This document shows positions 35,281 to 52,060 of a DNA stretch of 64,000 nucleotides, piece by piece. The notes beneath the pieces are model-generated. The model saw only the letters and a program-made list of their open reading frames with translations, ran no database searches and was not told where the DNA came from. Location: positions 1 through 64,000 of the forward strand of contig JACGCK010000148.1 of assembly GCA_014925825.1 (NCBI GenBank), given 5' to 3'. This stretch comes from Pholiota molesta (lineage: Eukaryota; Basidiomycota; Agaricomycetes; Agaricales; Strophariaceae). Made by a program: the position numbers and the translations under genes. How positions within the stretch are numbered: position 1 is the stretch's first letter; each line of letters opens with the position of its first letter.

Positions 35281-35665
35281 CAGGTCCTCAAACGCATAAC
35301 CAACGCGAGAGGCAGTTCCGTGGTAAACCAGAGTGAGCGATTCTGGGTGATTCTGGGATGATTCTGATGATGATCCTGATTACTGATTCTGACACAATTC
35401 TCATTCCAGTTTTTGTGCGAGTCAACGCAGAATCGGTTTACGACTCTGCCCCTCATCACCGCAGCGGCTGATCAATCTGATCTAGCAAAACAACCCCTCG
35501 AAGCTTGACGTTCGCGGAACTCACAATTCTCCTCGCACGTCGATTACCAATGCACCCCAATGACAGCGAGCGCGGCAGTCATACTATACACCCGCCCATT
35601 ACCGTACGCAAGCTCTCCGAGCCAGCCTTGTCTGTTAAATTTCTATATGAAATCAGGTTAGTTAG
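35281..35665. other. Unique spacer, no supported gene
   Basis: It contains a short degenerate run of GATTCTG words near 35,338-35,395. It borders the left end of the 15-kb element. Confidence 0.5.
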
Positions 35666-35930
35666 CGATATAAAAATAGTGCATCCAGCTTCCTAACTGA
35701 CGAGCACAGCCACTCCACCAAGCTGAGTTTGAAGACATTCCAGTTTTGGCAGGTGGTCTATGCTGGTCACTGGGGGCGGTGATGGTGATCACTGGAGGCT
35801 GTGCACTTGCTCACCATGCTCAACAGTGCCCAGCACTCCTCGTCGCTGTTGTCAGGGTCATCCCAAAGTGGAAATACCAAAAATAACATTTTTCCACTAT
35901 TGGTGGGATTGCAGCTGGGCAGCTGGTCCG
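35666..35930 (+). repeat. Left terminal inverted repeat, outer part
   Basis: Reverse complement of 50516-50780 with few changes. It is interrupted at 35,930/40,046 by the palindrome. Confidence 0.88.
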
Positions 35931-38900
35931 CTCTGTTTGGGGCCCTTTGGGACCATTTTATATCGATAGATGCGGATTTTGATTCTGAATACAACCGTGA
36001 AATTTCCATATTAATAGCTGCAATGGTTGACGCGCTAGACGCGAATTACTGATGGCTTAAAATTAGCGCCCACAAAGAATATTGTTTTCCTCCGCAACCG
36101 CGGGATCGTTTTGCATGATTTTAGGTGATATCTAGAGGTATTAAACGTGCGCGTCGAACGCGTCCATGATCGTAATTTTACGTCAGTTCCTTGCTCCGTA
36201 AAACGGCCCGGATAAAATTACGCTCGCACCGCTTCAGCGCCAGCTACGCATTGAATATCCGCGCGCATATTATATTGTAAAATAGGTTAATATCACACCT
36301 TTCCAACGGTACCCTTTGCGTTTGTATTGAAACATTCTACACGACGTTATTCACGAAATGGTTGTTTATTTATAGCAGGGGAACCACAAATCGCCTCAGG
36401 GAGCGCTTAGGTGCGTTACCATCTGCTGAATTTATTGGATTTAATGACACATCGACTTTGGAGATCAGACGCCGGGAAGGTATCGAACCAGACGCTGGGC
36501 TGGCATGGATATTGGGTGGCTGGCAGGCATGATTCTATATTTAGTATTCGGGCCGAGCACGTGTCTGTTGGCTGCATGCCCGGTATATGCACCTGGGTTG
36601 GCTCGCTCAATATTGGGCGCTTAGGCGCCATAATATACAGAAAGATTCAGAATTTCACACTGATTTCGAATCTAAAATTTCTATATTAATAGATGCATTT
36701 GTCAGGGCGCTAGAAGCGAATTACTGATGGCGCTTAAAATGCGCCCACAAAAGATGGCTTGTTTCTCATGAACCAGTGTTTTGTTTTGCATAATCTAAAT
36801 TGGAGTGTATAGATATTAAAAAGATCTTTCGAACGCGCTACTGATCATAATTTTCCGTCCCTTCCCTGGCACAGAAGACGGCCCGCACTATTCTGCACTC
36901 CAGCATTACTAGCATGGGCTAGGCATTGAATATAAATATGCTACGTTCCCATAAAATAGCTGAATACGAGGTCTTTCGAACGCGTGTATATGCACTTTTA
37001 TTGAATAGAATCCCATAGCTCCAGAAAGGAATTGATTGTGCATTAAATGATGTGGGGACCGCATACCGCGCCGGCGCGAACTTAGGCGCGTTGGAATCGC
37101 CTGAATTTACTGGATTTAATGACGCCTTTATTATGGCATTCGGAGGCCAGCAAGGTAGTGAACCAGACATGGGGTGGGTATGGATATTGCCTTGCTGGCC
37201 GGAATCGTACTATTTTTAGGCCTGCCGTGCTCGGCATCGCCCAATTTGGGCGTAGAATAGTGGCACCCTCCCCCTCCCCCCATATTAGAAATTCAATTCC
37301 TCCCTCAATTCTTATTCAATCCTTCTGTTCTTTTTTGTATTATTTTATATAAATACGGTACTATACGCCTATGCCATTGATACATTACTATAGTCATGCA
37401 GCAGGTGTTATTCAATATCGCTCTATTTTAATTAATTGGGGTTTTCACTGCATTTGGGTTGCTTATTGGCATATATAAAGGTATAGTTGGGACATGTGCA
37501 CATTTCTGGTAGTTTAGCACCAATATAAATGCTGACCTACAGGGTTACACACATAAAAGATGATTGGGGTACTTTCTCCTTGATATACTCATATCTCAGC
37601 CAATATTGTCACTACGGACAGACCCAAGCGTGCGTTAAAACGGCAACAAGGCAATTAAATATTGACCTATACAGTATTCTGACACACACCAATTACTCCA
37701 GTGATCACACCAGAATGATTAAATACAATAAACCCTGAACAATATTGCCCTGTGAATGTAGTTATGCGTCTAAAATTACACGACTTTCGAGGAGTACTCT
37801 ATAATATAGCTAGAATTACCTTGCCAAAATTAAAAGACCAGTACAACAATTGCGACCTCTAGATACTAAAACATCGCAAAATTCTTCGATTTCTTGAAAA
37901 TGTCAGTAGATTCATGCATATCTATATACTGTTACTACTCCAAATATAGTGTAATATGCTTATTATGGCTACTAGACACCAATATCACTTAATATAGGCA
38001 TTTATAAAAAAAGTTATCCATGAGAGCATATTCTAGACCACTTGGAGTGTTTAGATCATAGGGATATCTATGAATCAAGTCATACATCAAAAATGTGTGG
38101 GTAGGTCGCAACATATTTGGCTCTGTAGGGTGCAGTTCTACTCTCCTTGTCTACCTTTTGGATATATTGGGTGGTCTATATCATAATATACTCACACCGA
38201 ATACCACAATATTCCGAGCATAACTGAATGTGCCAGATGTATATTTCATGTTTTGTGCGAGATTTAATCATTCTGCTGATATAATAGATAAAATGCATTT
38301 AGAGAACAATCGTCGATTAATAGAGTTGGAAGCAGCATAATTAAGATGTAAATGAGCCATTAAACATGCTTGTAGCTACAGTATTGGGTGAGATATGAGT
38401 ACATCAAGCAGAAGGTACCCCAATCTATCTTTTATAGGTAGGAAGGCATTTATATTAGTGTTAAGCTACCAGGAACTGTGCTACGTATGTACCCACAACT
38501 ATTTACGGTTTTATATATGCCAATAAGCAACCCAAATGCGGTGAAAAACCCAATGTACCATTCAAAATAGAGAGATATAAAATAACACATGCTGCATGCA
38601 TTATAATAATGTATCAAAGCCTAGTCGTATAGTACCTATTTATATAAAATATACAAAAAAGAACGAAGGATTGGAACAGAATTGAGGGAGGAATTGAATT
38701 TTAATATGGGGGGAGGGGGAGGGTGCCACTATTCTACGCCCAAATTGGGCGATGCCGAGCACGGCAGGCCTAAAAATAGTACGATTCCGGCCAGCAAGGC
38801 AATATCCATACCCCCCCATGTCTTTTCACTACCTTCCGGCCTCCGAATGCCATAACAAGGCGTCATTAAATCCAGTAAAATCAGGTGATTCCAACGCGCC

Positions 38901-40045
38901 TAGTACGCGGTGGCGCGGTATGCGGTCCCACATTATTTACGCACAATCAATTCCTTTCTGGAGCTATGGATGTCTATTCAATAAAAGTGCATATACACGC
39001 GTTCGAAAGATCTCGTATTCAGCTATTTTATGGGAACGTAGCGCATTTATATTCAATGCCTAGCCCATGCTAGTAATGCTGGAGTGCAGAATAGTGCGGG
39101 CCGTATTCTGTGCCAGGGAAGGACGGAAAATTATGATCAGTAGCGCGTTCGAAAGATCTTTTAATATCTATACACTCCAATTTAGATTATGCAAAACAAG
39201 CCCGGTTCATGAGAAACAAGCCATCTTTTGTGGGCGCATTTTAAGCGCCATTAGTAATTCGCTTCTAGCGCCCTAACGAATGCAGCTATTGATATAAAAT
39301 TTTAGATTCGAAATCAGTGTAAAATTCCGAACCTTTCTGTATATTATGGCGTCTAAGCGCCCAATATTGAGCGGGCCAACCCAGGTGCATATACGGGGCA
39401 TGCAGCCAACAGACACGTGCTCGGCCCGAATACTAAATATAGAATCATGCCTGCCAGCCAGCCAATATCCATGCCAGCCCAGCATCTGCTTCAGTACCTT
39501 CCCGGCGTCTGATACCCAAAGTCGATGTGTCATTAAATCCAATAAATTCAGCAGATGGCAACGCACCTAAGCGCTCGCTGAGGCGATTTGTGGTTCCCCT
39601 GCTATAAATAAACAACCATTTCGTGAATAACGCCGCGTAGAATGTTCCAATACAAACGATAGGGTACCGTTGGAAAGGTGTGATATTAACCTATTTTACA
39701 ATATAATATGCGCGCGGATATTCAATGCGTAGCTGGCGCTAAAGCGGTGCGAGCGTAAATATATCCGGAGCGTTTTACGGAGCGAGGAAGGGACGTAAAA
39801 TTACGATCATGGACGCGTTCGAAGCGCACGGTTAATACCTCTAGATACCACCTAAGATCATGCAAAACGACCGGGCGGTTGCGGAGGAAAGCAATATTCT
39901 TTGTGGGCGCTAATTTTACGCCATCAGTAATTCGCGTCTAGCGCGTCAACCATTGCAGCTATTAATATGAAAATTTCACGGTTGTATTCAGAATCAAAAT
40001 CCGCATCTATCGATATAAAATGGCCCTAAAGGGCCCCAAACAGAG
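35931..40045. mobile_element. 4.1-kb foldback (palindromic) element, non-coding
   Basis: The left arm (35931 to about 37,790) is the near-perfect reverse complement of the right arm (about 38,190-40045), with an AT-rich centre of about 400 bp. Ends read CTCTGTTTGGGGCCCTTT on both sides. Landmarks are mirrored throughout: GCGCTAGACGCGAATTACTG with its partner near 39,930, CATCTGCTGAATTTATTGGA with one near 39,540, TTTGGGTTGCTTATTGGCAT with one near 38,530. No open frame of note exists. It splits the left terminal repeat of the surrounding element, whose right copy reads straight through. Confidence 0.88.
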
Positions 40046-40164
40046 TAGTCTCGAACCAAACTCTCTTCACTGTCCCAATCAAGACTGGACGTTGCGAGAG
40101 TCTGGGACACTTTGAACTACAAAGCCAGGACATTCTCTTACGCCAATTCTCGGATTATGTCAGC
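40046..40164 (+). repeat. Left terminal inverted repeat, inner part
   Basis: It continues the left repeat after the palindrome and pairs with about 50386-50515 (TAGTCTCGGACCAAACTCTT, AGTCTGGGACACTTT, TATGTCAGC). Confidence 0.75.
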
Positions 40165-40812
40165 TTTTTGGGCGTGGTTCGCTAAGAGACACGCCGTACC
40201 TTGCCCTCCACCATATTCTATGTTCTCTTAATTTCTGTATCTTATATTTCTCTTTTAATGGACCAAAATACTATTCCCTCAATCTCCCAGCTGGTCTGGC
40301 CTCCTCGCCGTGACCGCTCTTCTCAACACCAAGCGCCGCCTCTCACCCCGATTACCACGCATGTGCTCAATGCCCCACTCCTTACCCCCAGTATACAGTC
40401 GGAAACCACGTCGACACGTACGCCGGCGTCATCACTCCCAGACAAACTGCCCAAGAAGCAGAAGCGAAACGGTTACGACGTCGCTCCCAAAGCTCTTGGG
40501 TTTGCACCGTACTCGTTGACGAGTCGAGGCCGTCCTACCCGTGCTGCATTTGCCATCAACGGTACCGAAGGGATTCAGTCTCAAGCAGCTCTTTCCAATG
40601 ACGACTGGAATCGGATGGCTTTAGACGCAGGGATCATCACGGCGGGCTCTCATCTTTGCCCTTTTCAGATAGACGCTGCAAACTCTGTATTAGGACGTTC
40701 GGGCGATCTGGTGGTCATTGCGCCGACGGGTATGGGGAAGTCTTTGGTCTGGGATCTCCCGCTGTTGGCACAGGAAGGGGCAATCTCATTGGTGCTGGTG
40801 CCATACACAACG

Positions 40813-41162
40813 TGTAAGAATTCACTCAGTCGTTTACGGGGTGAAACAACTAACATTTAGTAAGTACCTGTAAGAATTCACTACGGTACATTGTAAGTTA
40901 AAGTTAGAGAATATGTAAAGTAGAATAGCTCACCTCAGTCGTTTACGGGGTGAAACAACTGAGGTGCTCGTACATGAGAAAACACGTATATAAGATATCA
41001 CGGAAACGATTCGTGAGCACGTAATAATAACGGAATGATAACACAAGAATTGCGCGAGATGCGCGTGAGCGAAGCTAATTTGAAATAAGTTGATAAGAGG
41101 AAACAGGCGCACGCGCGATGCGCTCGCGGCGCGTTTGTACGCACGCTCGCGTCATTCCAACA
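40813..41162 (-). repeat. Copia 1 3' LTR
   Basis: Starts TGTAAGAATTCACTCAGTCG and ends CATTCCAACA on the plus strand. A duplicated word (CTCAGTCGTTTACGGGGTG) occurs twice inside. Confidence 0.93.
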
Positions 41163-41175
41163 CTCCCCCTCAAAC
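41163..41175 (-). other. Copia 1 polypurine tract
   Basis: On the minus strand the bases next to the 3' LTR read TTTGAGGGGGAG, the purine run expected for plus-strand priming. Confidence 0.75.
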
Positions 41176-44100
41176 CGCCGCGAGTCCCAATTCCGCGGCG
41201 AAATGCTTGACCTTAGGCGACGGAAGCGCCTTCGTCAGCGCGTCGGCGACCATATCGTCCGTGGGGCAGTAGATGAGTCGAATCGAGCCGTTTTCGACGA
41301 TCCAGCGGATAAAGTGAAAACGCACGTCGATGTGCTTGGTGCGCGCATGGTACTGGTGATTTTTGGTGAGGGCGATGGCGGATTGGTTGTCCGAAAATAG
41401 AGTCGTGGCATCGAGAGAAGTCGAAAAGACTTCCGTCAGAAGCGACCGCAACCAGAGCGCCTCCTTGGCAGCGTGGGTAGCTGCGACGTACTCGGATTCC
41501 GTAGTTGACAGGCTTACTACCTCCTGTCGCTTCGCACTCCAGGAAACCGCGCCCCCATTCAACATAAAGGCATAGCCTGAAATCGCACGGCGGTCCTCAG
41601 CCATGCTCCCATCCGCATCCGCGTACCCCACCAGCTCCTTCCCAACTCCCCCATACGTCAACCACAGGTCCTGCGTACCCTTCAGGTAGCGAAAGATGCG
41701 CTTTACAGCCTCCCAGTGGTCGATCCCTGGCTTCGACGAAAAGCGCGACGCATTCTGCACGGCATAGGCAATATCCGGACGAGTACCGCGCGCGGCATAC
41801 ATCAACGAACCGACTGATTCGTGATACGGGACGTCTCGCATACGCGCGAACTCTTGCGTCGTCGAAGGAGATTGTGCGGACGTCAGACGGGTGTTTGGAT
41901 CCATGGGAATAGAGACGGGCTTCAGGTCTTGAAGTCCATACCGGCGGATAATCGACTCGATATACGAGCGCTGAGACAGCATCAGCCGACGCTGCTCGCG
42001 GACTCGACGCACTTCGATTCCGAGCAGCCAGTGCAGTTCGCCAAGATCCGTAATTTCGACGTGCTTTGAAATATCCGCCTTGAACTGTTCGATCAGAGGG
42101 AGGGCCGTCGAAACGATGGTGCAGTCGTCGACGTGAACCATGATAATGGTGAGTTCCTTTCCGTCATCGCTTCGCTTGTAGAACACGGCCTGATCGACCT
42201 CACAGCACTTGAAACCCAGGATTTCGACGAGAATTTCGACTAGGCGCTGGTACCAACGACGCCCGGACTGCTTGAGTCCGTACAAGGCTTTCAGAAGTCG
42301 GCAGACGAGATTGCGGTTGGTGTGGTATCCGGGAGGCTGGCGCATATAGATGACCTCCTTTTTCGTGAGTAGTCCATTCAAATAAGCGCCCTTGATGTCG
42401 ATCTGATGTATTTCCAGGTCAAGTGCAGCTGCGTATGCGAGGATTGCCCGAATCGAAGCTAAGCATGCAACAGGTGCGAACGTGTCGAAATAATCGACGC
42501 CCGGAACCTGCGAGAAACCCTGTGCAACGAGACGCGCCTTGTAGCGCACGACATTCCCCGCGGCGTCCTTCTTCGCACGAAACACCCACTTCGACCCAAT
42601 AATGTTCGCCCCATCCGGCGGCACAACCAACTCCCACGTCTCTGATTCCTTCAACACCTTCAGCTCCTCCTCGATCGCTTTCTCCCACAATGGCCAATCT
42701 GGCCTCGCCTTCGCCTCCTTCAGGTTGCGCGGTTCGAGTGCCTCTGCCTCACTGATCTCCGCAACCATCGCATACTCCTGTGCAAAATCCGCGGCAGGCA
42801 GTGTAAACTGTGTATCGCCTTCGCCATCTGGAGCATCTGCATTCTCGGGTGGCGCACCTTCGGGCTCGAGGAAATCATCGACAGGTGCAGGTTCAGGGAT
42901 TTTCGGGGTACGCGCGCCTCGTCGGCGCTCTCCAGTCACTGCGCGGCCTTCAAGGATGTCACGCAAGACTCTGCCGGGTTTCCGCGTACGCGATGAGCGC
43001 CTAAGCGCGGGCGCTTGATCGGACGAAGCTTCGGAGTCTGCTGCGTCGGACTCTGGAGTTTGCGCGGGGGCTGTATGAGGTGCAGCCAACGATGTCGAGG
43101 ATCCGGGGGTTGTCGCGGCAGGGTTGATCACGCCTTGGACTTGTCCGGGCCTTTGGTCTGCCTTCGTCTCGATAAACTCCCAATCCTCCCCCTCGAGGCG
43201 AGAGGCAGACGTCCCCGTCGGATCGTAATAAACGTTCCGCTCGACGGACACTGTCTTCTTGTCTGGCCAATACACTCGAACGCCCTTCGACCTGTCGTCC
43301 AATCCCATCCATCGCCCTTCCTTCACACGCCCACCCAACTTATCACCACCCTCGACCCGCACCCAAACCTTCTCGCCCCACTCACGGACATCACGAAGGT
43401 CCGGCTTCTTCCCAAAAGCCGCCTCGTACGGTGTCTGGCCTTCGACGGCCTTGGTCGACGTTCGATTCATCAACCAAACCACATGGCGTGCCGCCTCAGC
43501 CCACAGAAAACGCGGCAAGCCACTCGCGTGCAACAGCGCGCGAATCCGTTCGACGATCACACGATTTCGACGTTCGGCGACGCCGTTTTGCTGCGGCGTG
43601 TCGTGGACTGTTCGCTTCTGCGCAGTCCCGCGCGAGCGTAAATACATGACAAATTCGCGCCCCTCGTACTCGCCGCCCTTGTCTGAATGAAGGCACTTAA
43701 TCTTGGCGTCCAGCTGCGTGTCGACCCATGCCTCGTAGTCCTTGTAGGAATCGAAGGCGCCAGATTTCTTGGCAAGGAAATAAATGTTCGTAAGCCGTGT
43801 TTTGTCGTCCGTGTAAGTGATGTAGTAACGTTTTCCGCCCTTCGATTCAACAGGTGCCGGTCCCCAGAGATCGGAGTGGATTTCTCCACCGAATTCAGTC
43901 GCGCGATCGCCTTCGCGCTGCTTTGGGACGGGCTTGCGTGTTGCTTTCGCATAAACGCACGACTCGCAGAAGAACGGATCCCCGGACGACATTTCCGCAA
44001 CGCGCACACCACTAACGAGCTTGTTCGAAACAAGCCGCCTTGCCACATCGGGTGAGATATGCCCGAGACGTCGATGGAGTTGATCGAGGCTGATCTTCTC

Positions 44101-44625
44101 CCCCACAGCATTCACAGAATCGGGCTCGTGTTCGACACGGTACAGCCCCTTGCTGTTCTTCGGGACCACTCCAACGCGCGCGCCATCCGGACCACGCAGA
44201 ACGCACTTTCCACCACCAAAAGTCGCCGTAAAACCCATGTCGTCGAGCCGTCCGATCGAAACAAGGGTGTATCCAACCTCGGGCGAGTAAAGAACCTCCG
44301 TAAGGCGGAGCTGATTAGCTTCGACGCCATCAGGTACGTCAATAACAAGCTCGCCCACTCCAACAGCGCTGAAACTTCCTTTATTGGCAGCGCGCAATGG
44401 CTTTGGTGGGATGTTCTCGAGGGTATCGAAATCTTCGCAGTACGGCGAGATGTGCCGTGTCGATCCGGAGTCCAGGATCTCGACGCGCGGCGCACTATCA
44501 ACAATGCGCTCGGGCACGGACGCGATGAGTACATCCTCGGCAGGAGGCTCGAGCGCTACCAGTGGCTCGCCATCTTCATCGACATCCCATGCATCATCAG
44601 CATAATCCCCGGCATCGCTCGCCAC
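41170..44625 (-). CDS. pol: Copia 1 pol: protease, integrase, reverse transcriptase, RNase H
   Basis: An open frame of 1,151 codons without interruption. Protease active site ILDSGSTRHIS (about residues 50-60). GAG-pre-integrase zinc motif HRRLGH ... CESCVYAKA (about 185-235). Integrase core with IHSDLWGP, HSDKGGEYEG and QNGVAERRNR (about 245-400). Reverse transcriptase from SKWVFRAKKDAAG through VHVDDC, the catalytic Asp pair (about 680-900). RNase H with VGYADADGS, SLSTTESEY and SDNQSAI (about 1000-1090). The domain order places it in Ty1/Copia (Pseudoviridae). It is expressed as part of a gag-pol polyprotein and acts in cytoplasmic particles. The frame has no natural ATG at its start and joins gag through a frame change near 44,640. 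Confidence 0.93.
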   Translation of the reverse strand: MASDAGDYADDAWDVDEDGEPLVALEPPAEDVLIASVPERIVDSAPRVEILDSGSTRHISPYCEDFDTLENIPPKPLRAANKGSFSAVGVGELVIDVPDGVEANQLRLTEVLYSPEVGYTLVSIGRLDDMGFTATFGGGKCVLRGPDGARVGVVPKNSKGLYRVEHEPDSVNAVGEKISLDQLHRRLGHISPDVARRLVSNKLVSGVRVAEMSSGDPFFCESCVYAKATRKPVPKQREGDRATEFGGEIHSDLWGPAPVESKGGKRYYITYTDDKTRLTNIYFLAKKSGAFDSYKDYEAWVDTQLDAKIKCLHSDKGGEYEGREFVMYLRSRGTAQKRTVHDTPQQNGVAERRNRVIVERIRALLHASGLPRFLWAEAARHVVWLMNRTSTKAVEGQTPYEAAFGKKPDLRDVREWGEKVWVRVEGGDKLGGRVKEGRWMGLDDRSKGVRVYWPDKKTVSVERNVYYDPTGTSASRLEGEDWEFIETKADQRPGQVQGVINPAATTPGSSTSLAAPHTAPAQTPESDAADSEASSDQAPALRRSSRTRKPGRVLRDILEGRAVTGERRRGARTPKIPEPAPVDDFLEPEGAPPENADAPDGEGDTQFTLPAADFAQEYAMVAEISEAEALEPRNLKEAKARPDWPLWEKAIEEELKVLKESETWELVVPPDGANIIGSKWVFRAKKDAAGNVVRYKARLVAQGFSQVPGVDYFDTFAPVACLASIRAILAYAAALDLEIHQIDIKGAYLNGLLTKKEVIYMRQPPGYHTNRNLVCRLLKALYGLKQSGRRWYQRLVEILVEILGFKCCEVDQAVFYKRSDDGKELTIIMVHVDDCTIVSTALPLIEQFKADISKHVEITDLGELHWLLGIEVRRVREQRRLMLSQRSYIESIIRRYGLQDLKPVSIPMDPNTRLTSAQSPSTTQEFARMRDVPYHESVGSLMYAARGTRPDIAYAVQNASRFSSKPGIDHWEAVKRIFRYLKGTQDLWLTYGGVGKELVGYADADGSMAEDRRAISGYAFMLNGGAVSWSAKRQEVVSLSTTESEYVAATHAAKEALWLRSLLTEVFSTSLDATTLFSDNQSAIALTKNHQYHARTKHIDVRFHFIRWIVENGSIRLIYCPTDDMVADALTKALPSPKVKHFAAELGLAAV

Positions 44626-45691
44626 CTCGGAAACCAGCCGTCATCTTCATCGACATCGACATCGGCCGCATGGCCGGCATCCGACTCTGTGTTCGAAGTC
44701 GAAACACGTCCGTCATCGTCGTCGGACTCGTCTTCGGTTTCACAGCTGACAGCAAAAGCAATATCGCTATCCGAGTCGTCTTCGACCGCGTTCGCAGATC
44801 CTGAGGCCTTCGAATCCTTGTCCTTGGATTTCTCTTTGCCCTTTCCATCATCGCGATCCTTCGGGGGCTTCGGGCACTTGTCCTTGAAGTGGCCCTTCTC
44901 TCCGCAATTCCAGCAGGTGATCCGAGAACGCCAGTTTGAGCCACCCTTCCCACCCTTGCCCTTCGACGAGCCGCCGGTGACGGACATTGCTTCGTCGCCA
45001 TCGTCCTTCGACTTCCCACCAGAGCGCTTGGTTGAACTACCCCGCTGACTGGTCTTTTGACGTTCGAACTCCTCGGAGATCAGGGAAATCAAGATGTCAG
45101 GGTCAATGGTCTTCGTCGGGGCATACATCCGCGCCGCAGCAAGCTGCATCGACGCGAAATTCGCAAGAGGAGAGGGAAGAGAGGATAGAATGGTTGAACG
45201 GTAATCCTTTTCATCAATCTCGACGCCAACAGACGCTAACTCTTCGCGCTTGACGCGCAAACTGTCCAGGAACTCGCGGACATTCCCTTTATCGGGGCAC
45301 TTCGTCTCGAGGAAACGCGCACGCATGTCGGTCTGCGCGTACGCGCCCTTCTCCGTATACTCCTTGACAATGGCTTCCCAGCGTGCGCGGACAGTGGCTT
45401 CGCGTGGACACGCATCAACGTCGAATCCGGGATTTTCTGAGTCAGGAGTGACTTCGCGGACATCTCGTCCTTGTCCCACAGCTTCATGGCAGCGCTTTCG
45501 GCTTCCGTGGGTTTTTCATCGACGGCAGCTTTCGGGCGGGGCAACGAGCCATCGAAATGATTCCAGAAGCCCTTGGCTTCGACGGCATCCTGGAAGCGCA
45601 CACGGAAGATCGCCCAGTTCAAGCCAGTCGCATCAAGCTTCGGAATGGAAGACGGGAGGGTATCAGAGAGAGAAGTCGGGTTGGTAGACAT
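44590..45691 (-). pseudogene. gag: Copia 1 gag with two frame changes
   Basis: It starts at an ATG at 45691 (MSTNPTSLSDTLPSSIPKLD). The product has capsid-like text (FRVRFQDAVEAKGFWNHFDG) and then switches frame near 45,390 to continue ATVRARWEAIVKEYTEKGAY. It carries a CCHC zinc knuckle (CWNCGEKGHFKDKC) and an acidic linker. A second change near 44,640 leads into pol. One of these could be a programmed frameshift, but two within gag-pol suggest decay. Gag forms the particle shell and the knuckle binds RNA. Confidence 0.8.
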
Positions 45692-45755
45692 GGTGGATTT
45701 AGCACGAGTTCGAGAGTAGACAGTAATGGATATTCGAGATTTAGCAACGGTCTCC

Positions 45756-45768
45756 GGGGCCCATAACC
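45756..45768 (-). other. Copia 1 primer-binding site (half initiator tRNA-Met)
   Basis: The plus strand reads GGGGCCCATAACC directly inside the 5' LTR. This equals the anticodon arm of eukaryotic initiator tRNA-Met, so the minus-strand RNA is complementary to it. Priming from an internal half of tRNA-iMet is known from Drosophila copia. Confidence 0.75.
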
Positions 45769-46114
45769 TGTAAGAATTCACTCAGTCGTTTACGGGGTGA
45801 AACAACTACATTTGTAAGTACCTGTAAGAATTCACTACGGTACTTGTAAGTTAAGGTTAAGAAAATGTAAAGTAGAATAGCTCACCTCAGTCGTTTACGG
45901 GGTGAAACAACTGAGGTGCTCGTACATGAGAAAACACGTATATAAGATATCACGGAAACGATTCGTGAGCACGTAATAATAACGGAATGATAACACAAGA
46001 ATTGCGCGAGATGCGCGTGAGCGAAGCTAATTTGAAATAAGTTGATAAGAGGAAACAGGCGCACGCGCGATGCGCTCGCGGCGCGTTTGTACGCACGCTC
46101 GCGTCATTCCAACA
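45769..46114 (-). repeat. Copia 1 5' LTR
   Basis: Four bases shorter than the other LTR. Differences are concentrated in the first 100 bp on the plus strand. Confidence 0.93.
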
Positions 46115-47723
46115 CAACGTTGGGTGATCAGGGCGAGCAGAGTGAATGAGGGTCTTGTCGTTGTGGGTATGTTTCTAAATCTTATGTACGCTTTAGACAC
46201 AAAAATACATCCCTATCTGCCATCTTTGTTTCTTCTGAGAAGAAGTCGGAGGAGCTTCTAAAGAGCGCTGCTCAAGGAGACTTTCGGGTTATCTTCTTGT
46301 GTGCTGAAATGTTGGAAACACCTGCGTTTGCGCGAGTTTTGTTCTGCGAAGGGTTCCGTTCTCGATTATCGGCGGTCTATCTCGATGAAGGTCACTGCGT
46401 GCATGAGCAACATACCTGGCGACCTGCGTTTGAGCGAATCTGCCGAATCCGCCAAATCATTGGAGAAGATGTACCATTTGTAGGCATCTCCGCGACACTG
46501 CCCGACCGCTACAGAAAATCTCTGGTGCTCTACGCAGGTCTCAAGCCTGACTACAAGCTCATTAATCTAGGCAACTTTCGACCTGAGCTCTCGCTTGTCA
46601 TCTTGAACATGGAGCATGATGTGACATCTTTTCTGGACCTTGCTTTTACACTTCCGCTTGGAACGACGTCTGCGTCGGATCTCGAAGAAACACTTGTCTA
46701 CTCAGATGACATTGAACTACTCACGAAAATGTTCTGGTGGTATCATATACGGCTTGCATCAATGAACCTATCCGTTGATCTAGTCGATATACTACATGCA
46801 GGGCTCTCGGATGCTCACCAGCATCAGGCTATTGAAGACTTCAAGACTGGCCGCATCAAAATTCTCCTTGGAACAGAAAAAATCGGTGCTGGTGTAGACT
46901 TCCGAAGGTACGCTGGGTGATACAATATAAGTGTCGAGGTTTGACTTTGGTTCAATGGGAACAACGGCGCGGCCGAGGTGGCCGCAGAAAGGGTGATATT
47001 TCGACAGGCATTCTGATGGTTGAAAAATCTATGGGCGTCAGTGGCAATCTATCCATCAACAACCCCGGATATGAAGATCCGGCACTTCTTGAACTTATTC
47101 ATTCAACAACGCTACCCCCTCCTTTGAATTGCTGCGATATCGTTATTGACAAATGGCTCGAAAATCCACCTCGCTCATCATTATTACTCCTGCCACGCCC
47201 AAATGGATGTTGTGGAAACTGCTGCGCAAACTTGTTACCCGGCAAGGAGTGCCGCTTTATCATGTACAATCCACCAGCTGGGCCATCTATTCCTCGTCTA
47301 CCTCAACCAGAGCGGAGAAATATCTACTTAGCGTTGATTGAGTGGAGAGATAGAGCATGGCGTACTGATGGTTGGAAGGACAGATGGCCATATTCCGGAC
47401 CACACGACATTCTTCCAGATTCAGATCTAGATGATATCTCCAAGAGCGGGCACAGTATTATGACAGAAGATGAGCTCATCGACAAACTCCACACAATTCA
47501 TGCATCAGCTATCACTCCATCCCTATTTTTATCACTAAAACAGATACTCGCCAAAATATGTGAGCCACAGCAACACCAGCTAACCATCCATTCCACACAA
47601 CCCTCCTTGATTCCATCCACTGAGGCATCAACTAGCACATCACAGAAACGGAAGTCGACAAGAAATACAAATGAAAACCCAACCAAACTATCCAAATATG
47701 AAACAATTCTAGAGTTCTAATAT

Positions 47724-50278
47724 CTAATATTCTATACTATCAACTGTACTCATAATGACATCGCGAATTTCATTATTCTCGCTGTCCACAATATGCGTGA
47801 AATCCCTTTGAGCAAGAAACTCTATAGGTTCCACTGTTTCATCCACACTTTGAGCATCGCGTGTTCGAAAACGCAGTTTGTGTTGTGCAAGATGCTTTGC
47901 GTGGCCCCCATCTTTCCCAGCAACTCTATACCGACCATACCGGAACAAATCAATAACCGAGTGGTTGGAGATTTTGTCAGCTGAAAATTCAAATATCCTC
48001 GCCTTAATAAAGTGCTTCAGAAGAATTTCTGTATCCTTATGTTGCGAGACTTTTGCGTGATGCTGATTTTGCTCTTCAACTCCAAGGTCTTGATAAAGCT
48101 GATCTGTAAGTTTGCCAACATGTCCAAGTGCTGGAGTGCATCGTTCCAAGCTATCAGGTGTTGCATTGACGCCATGTGCATGAGACTTGATGTCATCGTT
48201 GAGATGCTCGCAGCGGATATCAGCCTCTTTAAATCCTCCAGGTTTTCCTGTGCTATTAACAAGCATTCCGTTGAAAGCAACTTGAGCAGAATCTATAGGC
48301 CAGTCATGTTCCATATTGTGTAAGAGCTCCATGAACTCGTGGGCATAATTGAAGCTTCCTCCCGCATAGAACATCGGCATCCAGAAACGCGTCACCCGGT
48401 GAATGCGTGTGGGATGTCCATGCTTGATCGCATGACGCATCTCTCGTAAAAGCATGAGATCATGCATCAAGAAAATAGCATGTCCAGATTCTGTGTTTCC
48501 ACGCACAGTCTTGATCCCATCGAATTCGAGCCGGTCGACTGAAGAGAGAAGAAACTTATCAGCAATTTCAGCGCTGAGAACGGAAATAGTGTCCAAGGAG
48601 GCTGGGATAAAGTTGCCGAAGTCTGAAACAGATTTAGTGCCTGTAACCACCATGGCAGCCTTGATTACTAGGGCTCGCAGAATGACATCGTAGAAACGAA
48701 GCCAAGCATAATAGTCAATCTTCTTTAAGTTGAGTGCAGATCGGTTCGGCAGTTCATTACGAAGAGTAATAAGGCTAACTGCATCTGCGGTAGAGCCTCC
48801 CCAAGCATTGCGACCCACGTTATCGATGTAATTGAGGCATGAATGCATCAGCCCATTCGTCATCGTAAAAGGCGTGAGCCGGTCGATAGAATGTTGAGAT
48901 CGATCCACGCTGCGTTGGTCTTGAGCTGCACGGTCACGTACAGTTGTGAGTCGGTCACCTATAACAAAGTACATGACACGTTCGAAGATGGGAACAGGCA
49001 GCTGCAGCACATCGAGGAAATAATGCCGCAAAACAATCATATTGCCTCTCGTTGATCCTTGCTCTTGATCAAATGTAGGTAGGCAGTATTCTTCAGTGAT
49101 AGATGGGGTTATTGCCTTCGGATCTTCGAATTTTGGAAGAGAACTGCGGAAGTGGTGGAATCCTTTGACTTCGTCAGCGAGGATGTATTGGATGTGAAGG
49201 ATCGTGTTGGCGCGAAATGCCACAATATCATCAGGACTTGCTGAGATCTCCTCCAACGCACGTCCAGGTGGAATCCGATGGCGGGATCCAAGTGTAGCCG
49301 TAAATCGTTCCCTGCTGGCAATGTAGCTGGCTGGCATCTCGCCGTGAGGAAGGACCAACAGTATAGCAGATACCTCGTCATGAGTAACGTTTTTGTTGGT
49401 TGCTGTTGCTTCCCATGCGAACGATAGCCAGTTAAAGTTGTCGTATAAAAAGGCCTTGACCTTTGTTTCATCTGCAGCGGCAGCTCGAGCCCTACAAAGT
49501 GCGTCCTTACTCACAGAGTTTAGTGCTGTCAATAAAAAGGGATATGACGCAGAGACAGCATAGCGATTGAACACTTGATGAAGTCGTTTATGGGCACGGT
49601 TATTCCACAGAACAAGCCCATTGATTGTGCAGTGGTAGTTTGTCTGGCGGCTTCGAAGATTCAAAAGCATCGATATTACAAGAGTGCGCCCCTATGAGTC
49701 GTGCTCAATTAATTCCAATAAAAGTCTTGTAAATATTCAATACTAACTGGGGCTGTCTCCCGCACTCGGACTTTTCTTTCCTGGAGTAGATCGTCGTCCT
49801 TCCCAATGACTCCCGTCAATAAAGACTCAAATTTCGGCAGGACGCGCACATAGCGCCGTGTCAGATCTTCCAACCTGAAATCTTCGAGTAATGCGACAGA
49901 AGCTTGATTGGCGGGGACCCGAAGAAAGTCGGCGTCCTTCTTATGAGGCCCTTGCGATGCTCTGTCTGTTAACCAGCTGAATTCTCTCCGACAAGCCTTC
50001 GTAGCCGTCTTCATTGCCCAGTCCGTCATTTCACTTGGAATTCTCTTCTCCCACACATCCAGTAACCCAGTAACTGCCCCGCTATTGAGAAAAATATTGG
50101 CTGATTTCTTGAGAGTGCTGTCATCTGATGCAAATAAAACTTCAAGCAATTGACGGAGGGAGAATCGGTTGCATTCCTCGGCCATGTAACGAAGAATGGC
50201 CTGCACTTTCTCAGTATCACTCCTGCGAGGGGCCCTCTGGGATAACGGCGGTGGTGGAAAATCGTCTTCTGCATTCAT
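47724..50278 (-). pseudogene. DUF6589-type protein, probable transposase of the 15-kb element
   Basis: It starts at an ATG at 50278 (MNAEDDFPPPPLSQRAPRRS) and runs to a stop at 49709 (YLQDFYWN). Coding sense resumes in another frame just downstream (GRTLVISMLLNLRSRQTNYH) and stays open for about 650 residues to 47724. The second part has the words LVLWNNRAHKR, FLYDNFNWLSFAWE, RFWMPMFYAGGSFNYAHEFM, and GGFKEADIRCEHLNDDIK, which I recognise as the DUF6589 family of basidiomycetes. Spaced Asp and Glu residues (YDNFNW, and GFKEAD in the C-terminal third) could be part of an RNase-H-like DDE site; this is inference. No GT-AG intron explains the stop plus frame change near 49,690-49,710, so it is probably inactive. 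Its promoter would lie in the right terminal repeat. Confidence 0.75.
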
Positions 50279-50385
50279 TTGACTACAGTAGATACAGGAG
50301 TGGTGAACGACAATGGAATAAGATGTATAGAGGAGGGAAATCAAAGAGATCAGTGAGCGACATAGCGAAAGACGCGCGTCGAGCT

Positions 50386-50780
50386 GCTGACATAAACCCG
50401 GGAACTTCCGTAAGGTAATGTCCTGGTTCTGTAGTTGAAAGTGTCCCAGACTCTGAGGCCGTGTCAACCATTTTGGGAGACGGCTGGAAGAGTTTGGTCC
50501 GAGACTACAAACAGAGCGGACCAGCTGCCCAGCTGCAATCCCACCAATAGTGGAAAAATGTTATTTTTGGTATTTCCACTTTGGGATGACCCTGACAACA
50601 GCGACGAGCAGTGCTGGGCACTGTTGAGCATGGTGAGCAAGTGCACAGCCTCCAGTGATCACCATCACCGCCCCAGTGACCAGCATAGACCACCTGCCAA
50701 AAGTGGAATGTCTTCAAACTCAGCTTGGTGGAGTGGCTGTGCCCGTCAGTTAGGAAGCTGGATGCACTATTTTTATATCG
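50386..50780 (-). repeat. Right terminal inverted repeat, uninterrupted
   Basis: Full-length counterpart of the split left repeat. It reads through the point where the palindrome sits on the left (CTCTGTTTGTAGTCTCGG on the minus strand). Confidence 0.88.
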
Positions 50781-51408
50781 TCAATCTAGTCTGATTCATG
50801 CATGAGATTGACAGACACAAGTGGATGAGCTTCGCGACCATGTGCTTTTCTTCGTCCCTCAACTCCTGATCCCTGCTGTGTACCTCATCGCTCCACTCCT
50901 GGTATGAAAGCGAGGCATCGATGGGCTTGTTGGCGAGCGAGACGGCGAGGGAGGCGCGGGTATTGGCTTCCAGGACGTCGCGGAGTGCCCCTTCGGACAG
51001 GGTGAATGTCTTCGTGGACGTGTTCAGGATGGCGTTGAGGTTTTCGATTTTGATCCGCCAGTCCACGAAGCGGGAGTTTTCGGGCTGTTTCACGGAGTGG
51101 ATCTGTTGTTTCGTGTGGTGCGCCCAGTTCTTGTCGAGGGCGAAAGCTGACAACTCGGCGATGTACTCGTCGAGCGACAGTTTGTCGATCCGGTCCATTT
51201 GGGTCACATACCAGTTCTGGAGGCGGGGTTCGAGCATCGCGTCCGCCACCAAACGGACGACCTCTGTCTTCGGGTCCTTGCCTGACTGTTTGGCGAAACG
51301 GCGACACGCATGGTACCAGTTCTGGAGAATGAGGGGGTTGATGGTGCCGCTGGTGAGTGTTGGGCAGTCCCTGATCTTCAACACGACGACCTGAGCAGTT
51401 GTCGACAT
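50781..51408 (-). pseudogene. gag: Ty3/Gypsy gag remnant, cut off by the 15-kb element
   Basis: From an ATG at 51408 the frame reads MSTTAQVVVLKIRDCPTLTS and continues with LILQNWYHACRRFAKQSGKD, DEYIAELSAFALDKNWAHHT, LNAILNTSTKTFTLSEGALR and DVLEANTRASLAVSLANK. This is the capsid layout of Ty3/Gypsy gag proteins common in mushroom genomes. It is about 210 residues long. It runs straight into the right terminal repeat of the 15-kb element at 50,780 and ends at a stop inside it. The zinc knuckle and all of pol are missing, and nothing on the far side of the element resembles the continuation. Confidence 0.7.
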
Positions 51409-52060
51409 CCTATCTTTAGCACGGCTTTGGCTTAGGTAGGCGAGGCTTCTGTTGGGCTGTGCTGATAGTGCAGTGATCTGATCGTCGTCGCTTGATGATG
51501 ATTCTTTGACGATTGATGGGGCCTTGTCGTCGCTATAAAAGGCAGCTGTGGGTGTCGGTGTGGTAGGAGAGGCCGGTAACGGAGGGAAGATGTAGTCGGT
51601 GGGGTTTTCTGTGGGGACAGTGGCTGGTGGGCTTAACGGTGCGGCCTCGGCTGCTTGACTCCGGCCTCGCCTGGTGAGGAGGGGCGTGGGAGTGGAAGGT
51701 TGACGGCTCAGGGTGCTGTCTTTTTGTGGATGGTAAAATCCACGGTGTTGCGGAGATTGCGGTGGGACGGTGGGTGTGGGAGTTTAACATTTTAACGACG
51801 TCAAAAAAAAAGTGTAAGGGCGCCGTGTAATGGTGCCTTTCGCTCAGATCAGACAGAACAGACGGGTCAAATGTGTATCTTTGAGGCTCGGTCAGAAGAG
51901 AAGTACATGAGAAATAAATGAGTATCTACACACCTTTGAGGCTCGGTCAGAAGAGAAGGAGCCTCAAGGTGAAAACGGGATTTTTATGTGGTGATCACGT
52001 GATAAGGCGAAATAAGGTTTGCGTCGTGAGTGGGGCCAAAGGGCCATGCTTACAGTTGTA
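51409..52060. other. Gypsy leader/LTR region, not resolved
   Basis: It probably holds the 5' leader and perhaps an LTR of the gag remnant on the minus strand, but no second LTR exists to define it. A 24-bp word (TTTGAGGCTCGGTCAGAAGA and four more bases) occurs at 51880-51903 and 51935-51958. Confidence 0.35.

Follow-up and report, generated by a model that had tools for sequence, protein, structure and literature searches.

Transposases of the P element and of hAT elements such as Hermes are built on an RNase-H-like core in which a helical insertion separates the second D from the E, a plan shared by the predicted fold of DUF6589; P and hAT transposons have no known helicase partner and leave 8-bp target duplications. 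Classical Academ transposons carry an XPG nuclease gene and a Cys8 zinc finger, and duplicate 3-4 bp of their target. A helicase is encoded by AcademH, described by Kojima (cited in the reference entries of PMC12210899), and by KolobokH, a DNA transposon with a RecQ helicase that a passage of PMC9587614 restricts to fungi. Duplications of 4 to 10 bp are given for IS256 and MuDR in a passage of PMC10045372. The element analysed here, a transposon with a RecQ-like helicase gene and a DUF6589 gene, lies in a 64,000-bp stretch of Pholiota molesta (GCA_014925825.1, JACGCK010000148.1, positions 1 to 64,000, forward strand; hereafter the window) on a contig of 112,185 bp (C55) of the 65.6-Mb assembly searched (G000).

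Positions 40046-50507 are a real class II DNA transposon, with borders differing from those of the first-pass annotation of the window. That it encodes a DUF6589 DDE transposase and a RecQ-like helicase on opposite strands, inserts with a 9-bp stagger and belongs to a multi-member family is held with high confidence. The sequence TAGTCTCG started at 40046, its inverse ended at 50507, and an exact 9-bp CAAACAGAG stood on either side. The terminal inverted repeats (TIR) had the same ends as in the uninterrupted relatives C46 and C603, which start with TAGTCTCG. The features of this copy were:

40046-50507: helicase/DUF6589 transposon, 10,462 bp (about 5.1 kb without the long terminal repeat (LTR) element), ends TAGTCTCG...CGAGACTA
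40037-40045, plus strand: left target site duplication, CAAACAGAG
50508-50516, plus strand: right target site duplication, CAAACAGAG
40046-40164, plus strand: left TIR, about 120 bp, 75% identical to the right TIR
50386-50507, minus strand: right TIR
40258-47720, plus strand: gene for a RecQ-like superfamily 2 helicase, split by the LTR element and changing reading frame near 46.9 kb
47724-50278, minus strand: DUF6589 gene, proposed DDE transposase, with open reading frames (ORF) 49709-50560 and 47724-49691
40806-46115, minus strand: LTR element in the helicase gene, LTRs 40806-41163 and 45762-46115, 98% identical
35623-40045: host repeat, left part, comprising the terminus, the long inverted arms and the 9 bp that open the right terminal segment
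50508-50823: host repeat, right end, split off by the helicase/DUF6589 insertion

The first-pass annotation had bounded the element by TIRs of about 390 bp. Each such repeat was made of 274 bp of host repeat and about 120 bp of true TIR, end to end, and the outer 315 bp or so were the end of a separate 4.7-kb repeat, with true ends in the window at 35623 and 50823. A single 15-kb element bounded by the 390-bp repeats, with a 4.1-kb insertion within, would fit the symmetry of the outer repeats, which were 98-99% identical (within 35666-35939 vs 50508-50780); this reading is extremely improbable, being contradicted by the 9-bp duplication located inside the outer repeats, by the relatives of the two-gene element, which end at TAGTCTCG, and by the recurrence of the outer repeat as the termini of 4.7-kb elements that are themselves flanked by 7-bp duplications. 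The genome search with the 390-bp repeat, proposed as a check in the first-pass annotation, returned copies that were usually 4.7-kb elements without the two genes, an outcome that the annotation had listed as counting against its proposal but that arose only because the ends of the host repeat had been mistaken for those of the element. Among 188 candidates, 40 matches were scored, 28 of which fell into 14 inverted pairs with a spacing of about 4.7 kb; copies were many, at 94-99% identity over the 390-bp query. Two end types were present (CAGCCTTG and CACTTGTG), and target duplications of exactly 7 bp flanked 11 of the 13 copies with flanks (8 bp in C7, none in C615). The flanking 7-mers of the window copy of the host repeat agreed by eye at just 4 of 7 positions. 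Its inverted arms were about 1.7-2 kb (92% identical in the window) around a middle of 0.75 kb, and no ORF longer than 121 residues was found inside.

The CAAACAGAG site was uninterrupted in all seven other host-repeat copy ends fetched (L002-L008), and also at the own left junction of the window copy of the host repeat (L001). The 9-bp duplication together with these uninterrupted sites places the insertion of the two-gene element in the right terminal segment of the host repeat, to which the element is unrelated. A hybrid formed on the left side by recombination between two elements was dropped because the 9-bp duplication was present at the inner junction. Of the nested insertions assumed in the first-pass annotation, the LTR element at 40806-46115 was real, and the 4.1 kb at 35940-40045 was the body of the host repeat.

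Two loci, L099 (C180:18079) and L100 (C600:59610), were 89-98% like part of the left TIR of the window, and may mark the ends of copies that are non-autonomous or dead; three weaker matches to the same TIR were located on C111, C589 and C135. A minus-strand open frame at 50773-51783, Gag-like by eye (LTR retrotransposon), lay mostly just outside the right end of the host repeat.

The gene arrangement reported in the first-pass annotation held: the helicase and DUF6589 genes converged, with stops at 47720 and 47724 and 3 bp between them, and with start codons that lay 94 bp and 108 bp inward of the inner TIR edges. The helicase gene was read in three plus-strand pieces, of which 40186-40860 matched DEAD (PF00270), 46150-46920 matched Helicase_C (PF00271) and 46836-47720 had no Pfam match. 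The C46 relative had one open frame of 755 residues, matching recQ_fam (TIGR00614; E 5.4e-16, 58 bits, below the curated cut-off of 220) and DNA helicase Q5 (E 1.7e-9), and the helicase core is predicted to be of RecQ type. The LTR element breaking the window gene was Copia-type by eye, with 5-bp direct repeats at its borders whose exact phase was ambiguous. The minus-strand ORF 47724-49691 matched DUF6589 (PF20231; E 1.6e-83); a public protein (P0001, 826 residues) spanned the products of both DUF6589 ORFs, which are presumably joined across an intron, and the best protein match of the DUF6589 ORF was 100% identical and came from Pholiota molesta. Over the scanned ORFs, Pfam gave DUF6589, DEAD, Helicase_C and ResIII, with weak Med27 and Cas3-like_C_2; for the DUF6589 core ORF, DUF6589 was the only match up to E 5.

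The two genes occurred together throughout the genome. The 61 DUF6589 profile matches gave 36 loci, 31 with a helicase match within 6 kb; on closer inspection a helicase was also found beside C98 and C136, and the three unpaired loci (C135, C223 and C313) were short matches. With 33 of 36 loci paired in Pholiota molesta, DUF6589 genes were not regularly apart from a helicase, a possibility that the first-pass annotation had raised against its own proposal. All 31 helicase loci were paired with DUF6589. The pairs (n = 33) were tail-to-tail in 25 cases, head-to-head in 8 and co-oriented in none, and both layouts carried 9-bp duplications (head-to-head examples C19, C25 and C257).

The comparison across other species took the best 120 of 141 DUF6589 relatives and 68 helicase relatives, from protein searches that each scored the 8000 candidates sharing most words. 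Half of the helicase relatives (34/68) matched the exact contig size of a listed DUF6589 relative, with 8 of these 34 contigs below 9 kb; with contig sizes shifted by 1-5 as a control, at most 1 coincidence arose. An 8,705-bp contig of Arthromyces matolae carried the two genes under neighbouring locus tags (H0H93_015956 and H0H93_015957). Distances within the two families were correlated (mirror-distance r 0.92; 33 pairs, one of the 34 same-size contigs, 4182 with two DUF6589 entries, having been dropped; 0 of 2000 permutations), which was not counted as proof, since the two genes of each pair come from the same species. No animal protein was present among the best 120 of either DUF6589 search.

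Target duplications were scanned in 21 merged regions of at least 4.5 kb, as exact 9-mers with at least 3 letter kinds flanking a stretch longer than 3.5 kb that starts with YAG and ends with CTR. Twelve elements of 5,513-6,640 bp with exact 9-bp duplications were found, one per region, and with each of three control motif pairs the count was 0. The flanks of several regions had been fetched since inverted repeats were spotted there first; the scan ignored those positions. A looser first scan (8-10 bp) also gave ten one-mismatch rows, which were excluded from the counts. The 12 elements spanned several divergent clades, with ends of TAGTCTCG or TAGTCTCT/TAGTCTTG, of CAGGCTCC, and of TAGGCTCG/TAGACTCG. 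The C25 duplication fitted 9 or 10 bp. No exact 9-bp case was obtained in 9 of the 21 regions, including C456, which had an 8-bp duplication; in most of the other empty regions one element end probably lay outside the fetched stretch, and the ends of C40 and C36 were inspected with no 9-bp case resolved. TIRs with fixed-length duplications, as in cut-and-paste transposition, were observed in the 12 exact 9-bp cases, in the window copy and in one 8-bp case. Two C334 copies were 99.95% identical over their whole length and had different flanks, a C147 copy was 98.7% identical to one of them, and the C104 TIRs were identical over 206 bp; with such near-identity, the insertions of C334, C147 and C104 look recent.

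The fold predicted for DUF6589 contained a confident RNase-H-like core, as the first-pass annotation had anticipated, split by a helical insertion, and its best solved structural matches were the P-element and Hermes transposases. It offers D255, D417 and E623 (P0001 numbering) as a candidate acidic triad. All genome copies in which the profile aligned the first and second D had both. The E was shifted three positions downstream in one clade and was missing from C104, the candidate D-D-E being kept in most divergent copies, with exceptions. A BFVD fold search gave nothing below E 0.001 (best, a hAT-like protein at 0.012), and the DUF6589 alignment profile had no match among PDB sequences up to E 5. 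The ends, the exact 9-bp duplications, the gene pairing, the recent copies and the predicted fold together strongly support a putative transposase role for DUF6589 in a transposon that also encodes a helicase. Judged by sequence and predicted structure, the first-pass annotation was right about the transposase; it was wrong about the borders.

In the mechanism proposed, DUF6589 would cut at TIR ends of the TAGTCTCG type, with D255, D417 and E623 as its putative catalytic residues, and the cut ends would be joined to the target with a 9-bp stagger, giving the 9-bp duplications. The helicase would most likely unwind or process the ends, a transposition intermediate or the gap under repair. The window copy inserted into the 4.7-kb repeat, which is unrelated to it, and the LTR element breaks the helicase gene of this copy.

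Among described systems, KolobokH is likewise a DNA transposon of fungi with a RecQ helicase gene; it was rejected, its duplications being TTAA and those here being 9 bp of varied sequence, with the genes on opposite strands. MuDR/MULE elements make duplications of similar length and differ by the helicase gene present here; they were rejected too, as the Pfam scan of the DUF6589 core ORF up to E 5 gave no MULE transposase domain. P and hAT transposases were the best fold matches of DUF6589, yet the window ORFs contained no Pfam domain of either, and THAP, BED and hAT dimerisation domains were all missing from their Pfam matches. The DUF6589/RecQ elements are probably AcademH, the helicase-encoding Academ group of animals and fungi, in which case DUF6589 is simply what Pfam calls the AcademH transposase. 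AcademH shares with them a helicase in a fungal DNA transposon, and a helicase gene adjoining the transposase, as in the 33 paired loci. Against it stand the 9-bp duplications, where classical Academ has 3-4 bp, and the DUF6589 consensus, in which by eye there was no Cys8 zinc finger and no conserved cysteine run. For the XPG nuclease of classical Academ, the Pfam scan of ORFs gave no match. The name AcademH is in the title of Kojima 2020 as cited in the reference entries of PMC10799480 and PMC8290104, a passage of PMC6416283 counts 1,568 of 1,938 fungal Academ copies with recognizable domains such as DEAD helicase and recQ_fam, and the mean length of bivalve Academ in an excerpt of PMC10294476 (5,565 bp) is near the 5.5-6.6 kb here. 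Since fungal Academ copies are reported with RecQ-family helicases, AcademH is the likely published name. No statement on Academ duplication length and no DUF6589 paper were found in the literature searched, including PMC11071193.

It appears unlikely that the DUF6589/RecQ elements form a superfamily of their own, allied to P, hAT and MuDR, whose helicase was acquired independently of Academ. Such a superfamily would agree with the 9-bp duplications and with P element and Hermes as the closest solved folds. It would also agree with H454, which follows the fifth strand (GLMH, GLFH), was conserved in all genome copies aligned at that point, and stands about where P, hAT and MuDR have C/DxxH between the second D and the last E (a passage of PMC10045372). 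However, at -3 from H454 the aligned copies have G, P or E, not C or D. To our knowledge, the PDB holds no Academ transposase for comparison, a further point against separation. Similarly doubtful is the fuller proposal that DUF6589 marks a distinct helicase-bearing DDE superfamily with a P/hAT/MuDR-like fold, 9-bp duplications, YAG(G/T/A)CTC-type ends, and layouts switched between tail-to-tail and head-to-head; the RecQ helicase would then be a standing partner rather than a passenger, because the genes stay together on opposite strands although their layout switches.

Under the preferred reading of DUF6589 as a transposase, a curated family of unknown function, which had relatives in many mushroom genomes by protein searches and was named as 'DUF6589' in no paper of the full-text literature search, is given a testable function. 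Helicase/DUF6589 elements may explain the multiplication of RecQ-like genes in mushroom genomes, and annotations probably list their genes among those of the host, as an excerpt of PMC6416283 says often happens with fungal Academs. The C46 copy looks intact and has defined ends, and a direct test of whether a transposon depends on a helicase of its own becomes possible.

Other copies were of note individually. Two head-to-head elements on C257 (99394-105551 and 119300-126504) were 99.9-100% identical where aligned, with both ends resolved for the second only. At C400:131027-140619 (L032, L033, L036, L056 and L057), two helicase/DUF6589 elements faced each other across about 170 bp and formed a nearly perfect 4.7-kb inverted repeat (99.9%), either a real inverted insertion or an assembly artefact. 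The DUF6589 protein at C456:184136-185836 (L025:1396-3096) had 97% identity over 99% of its length to a protein from a different genus, Crassisporium funariophilum (P0121), and is a candidate for recent horizontal transfer, or for contamination.
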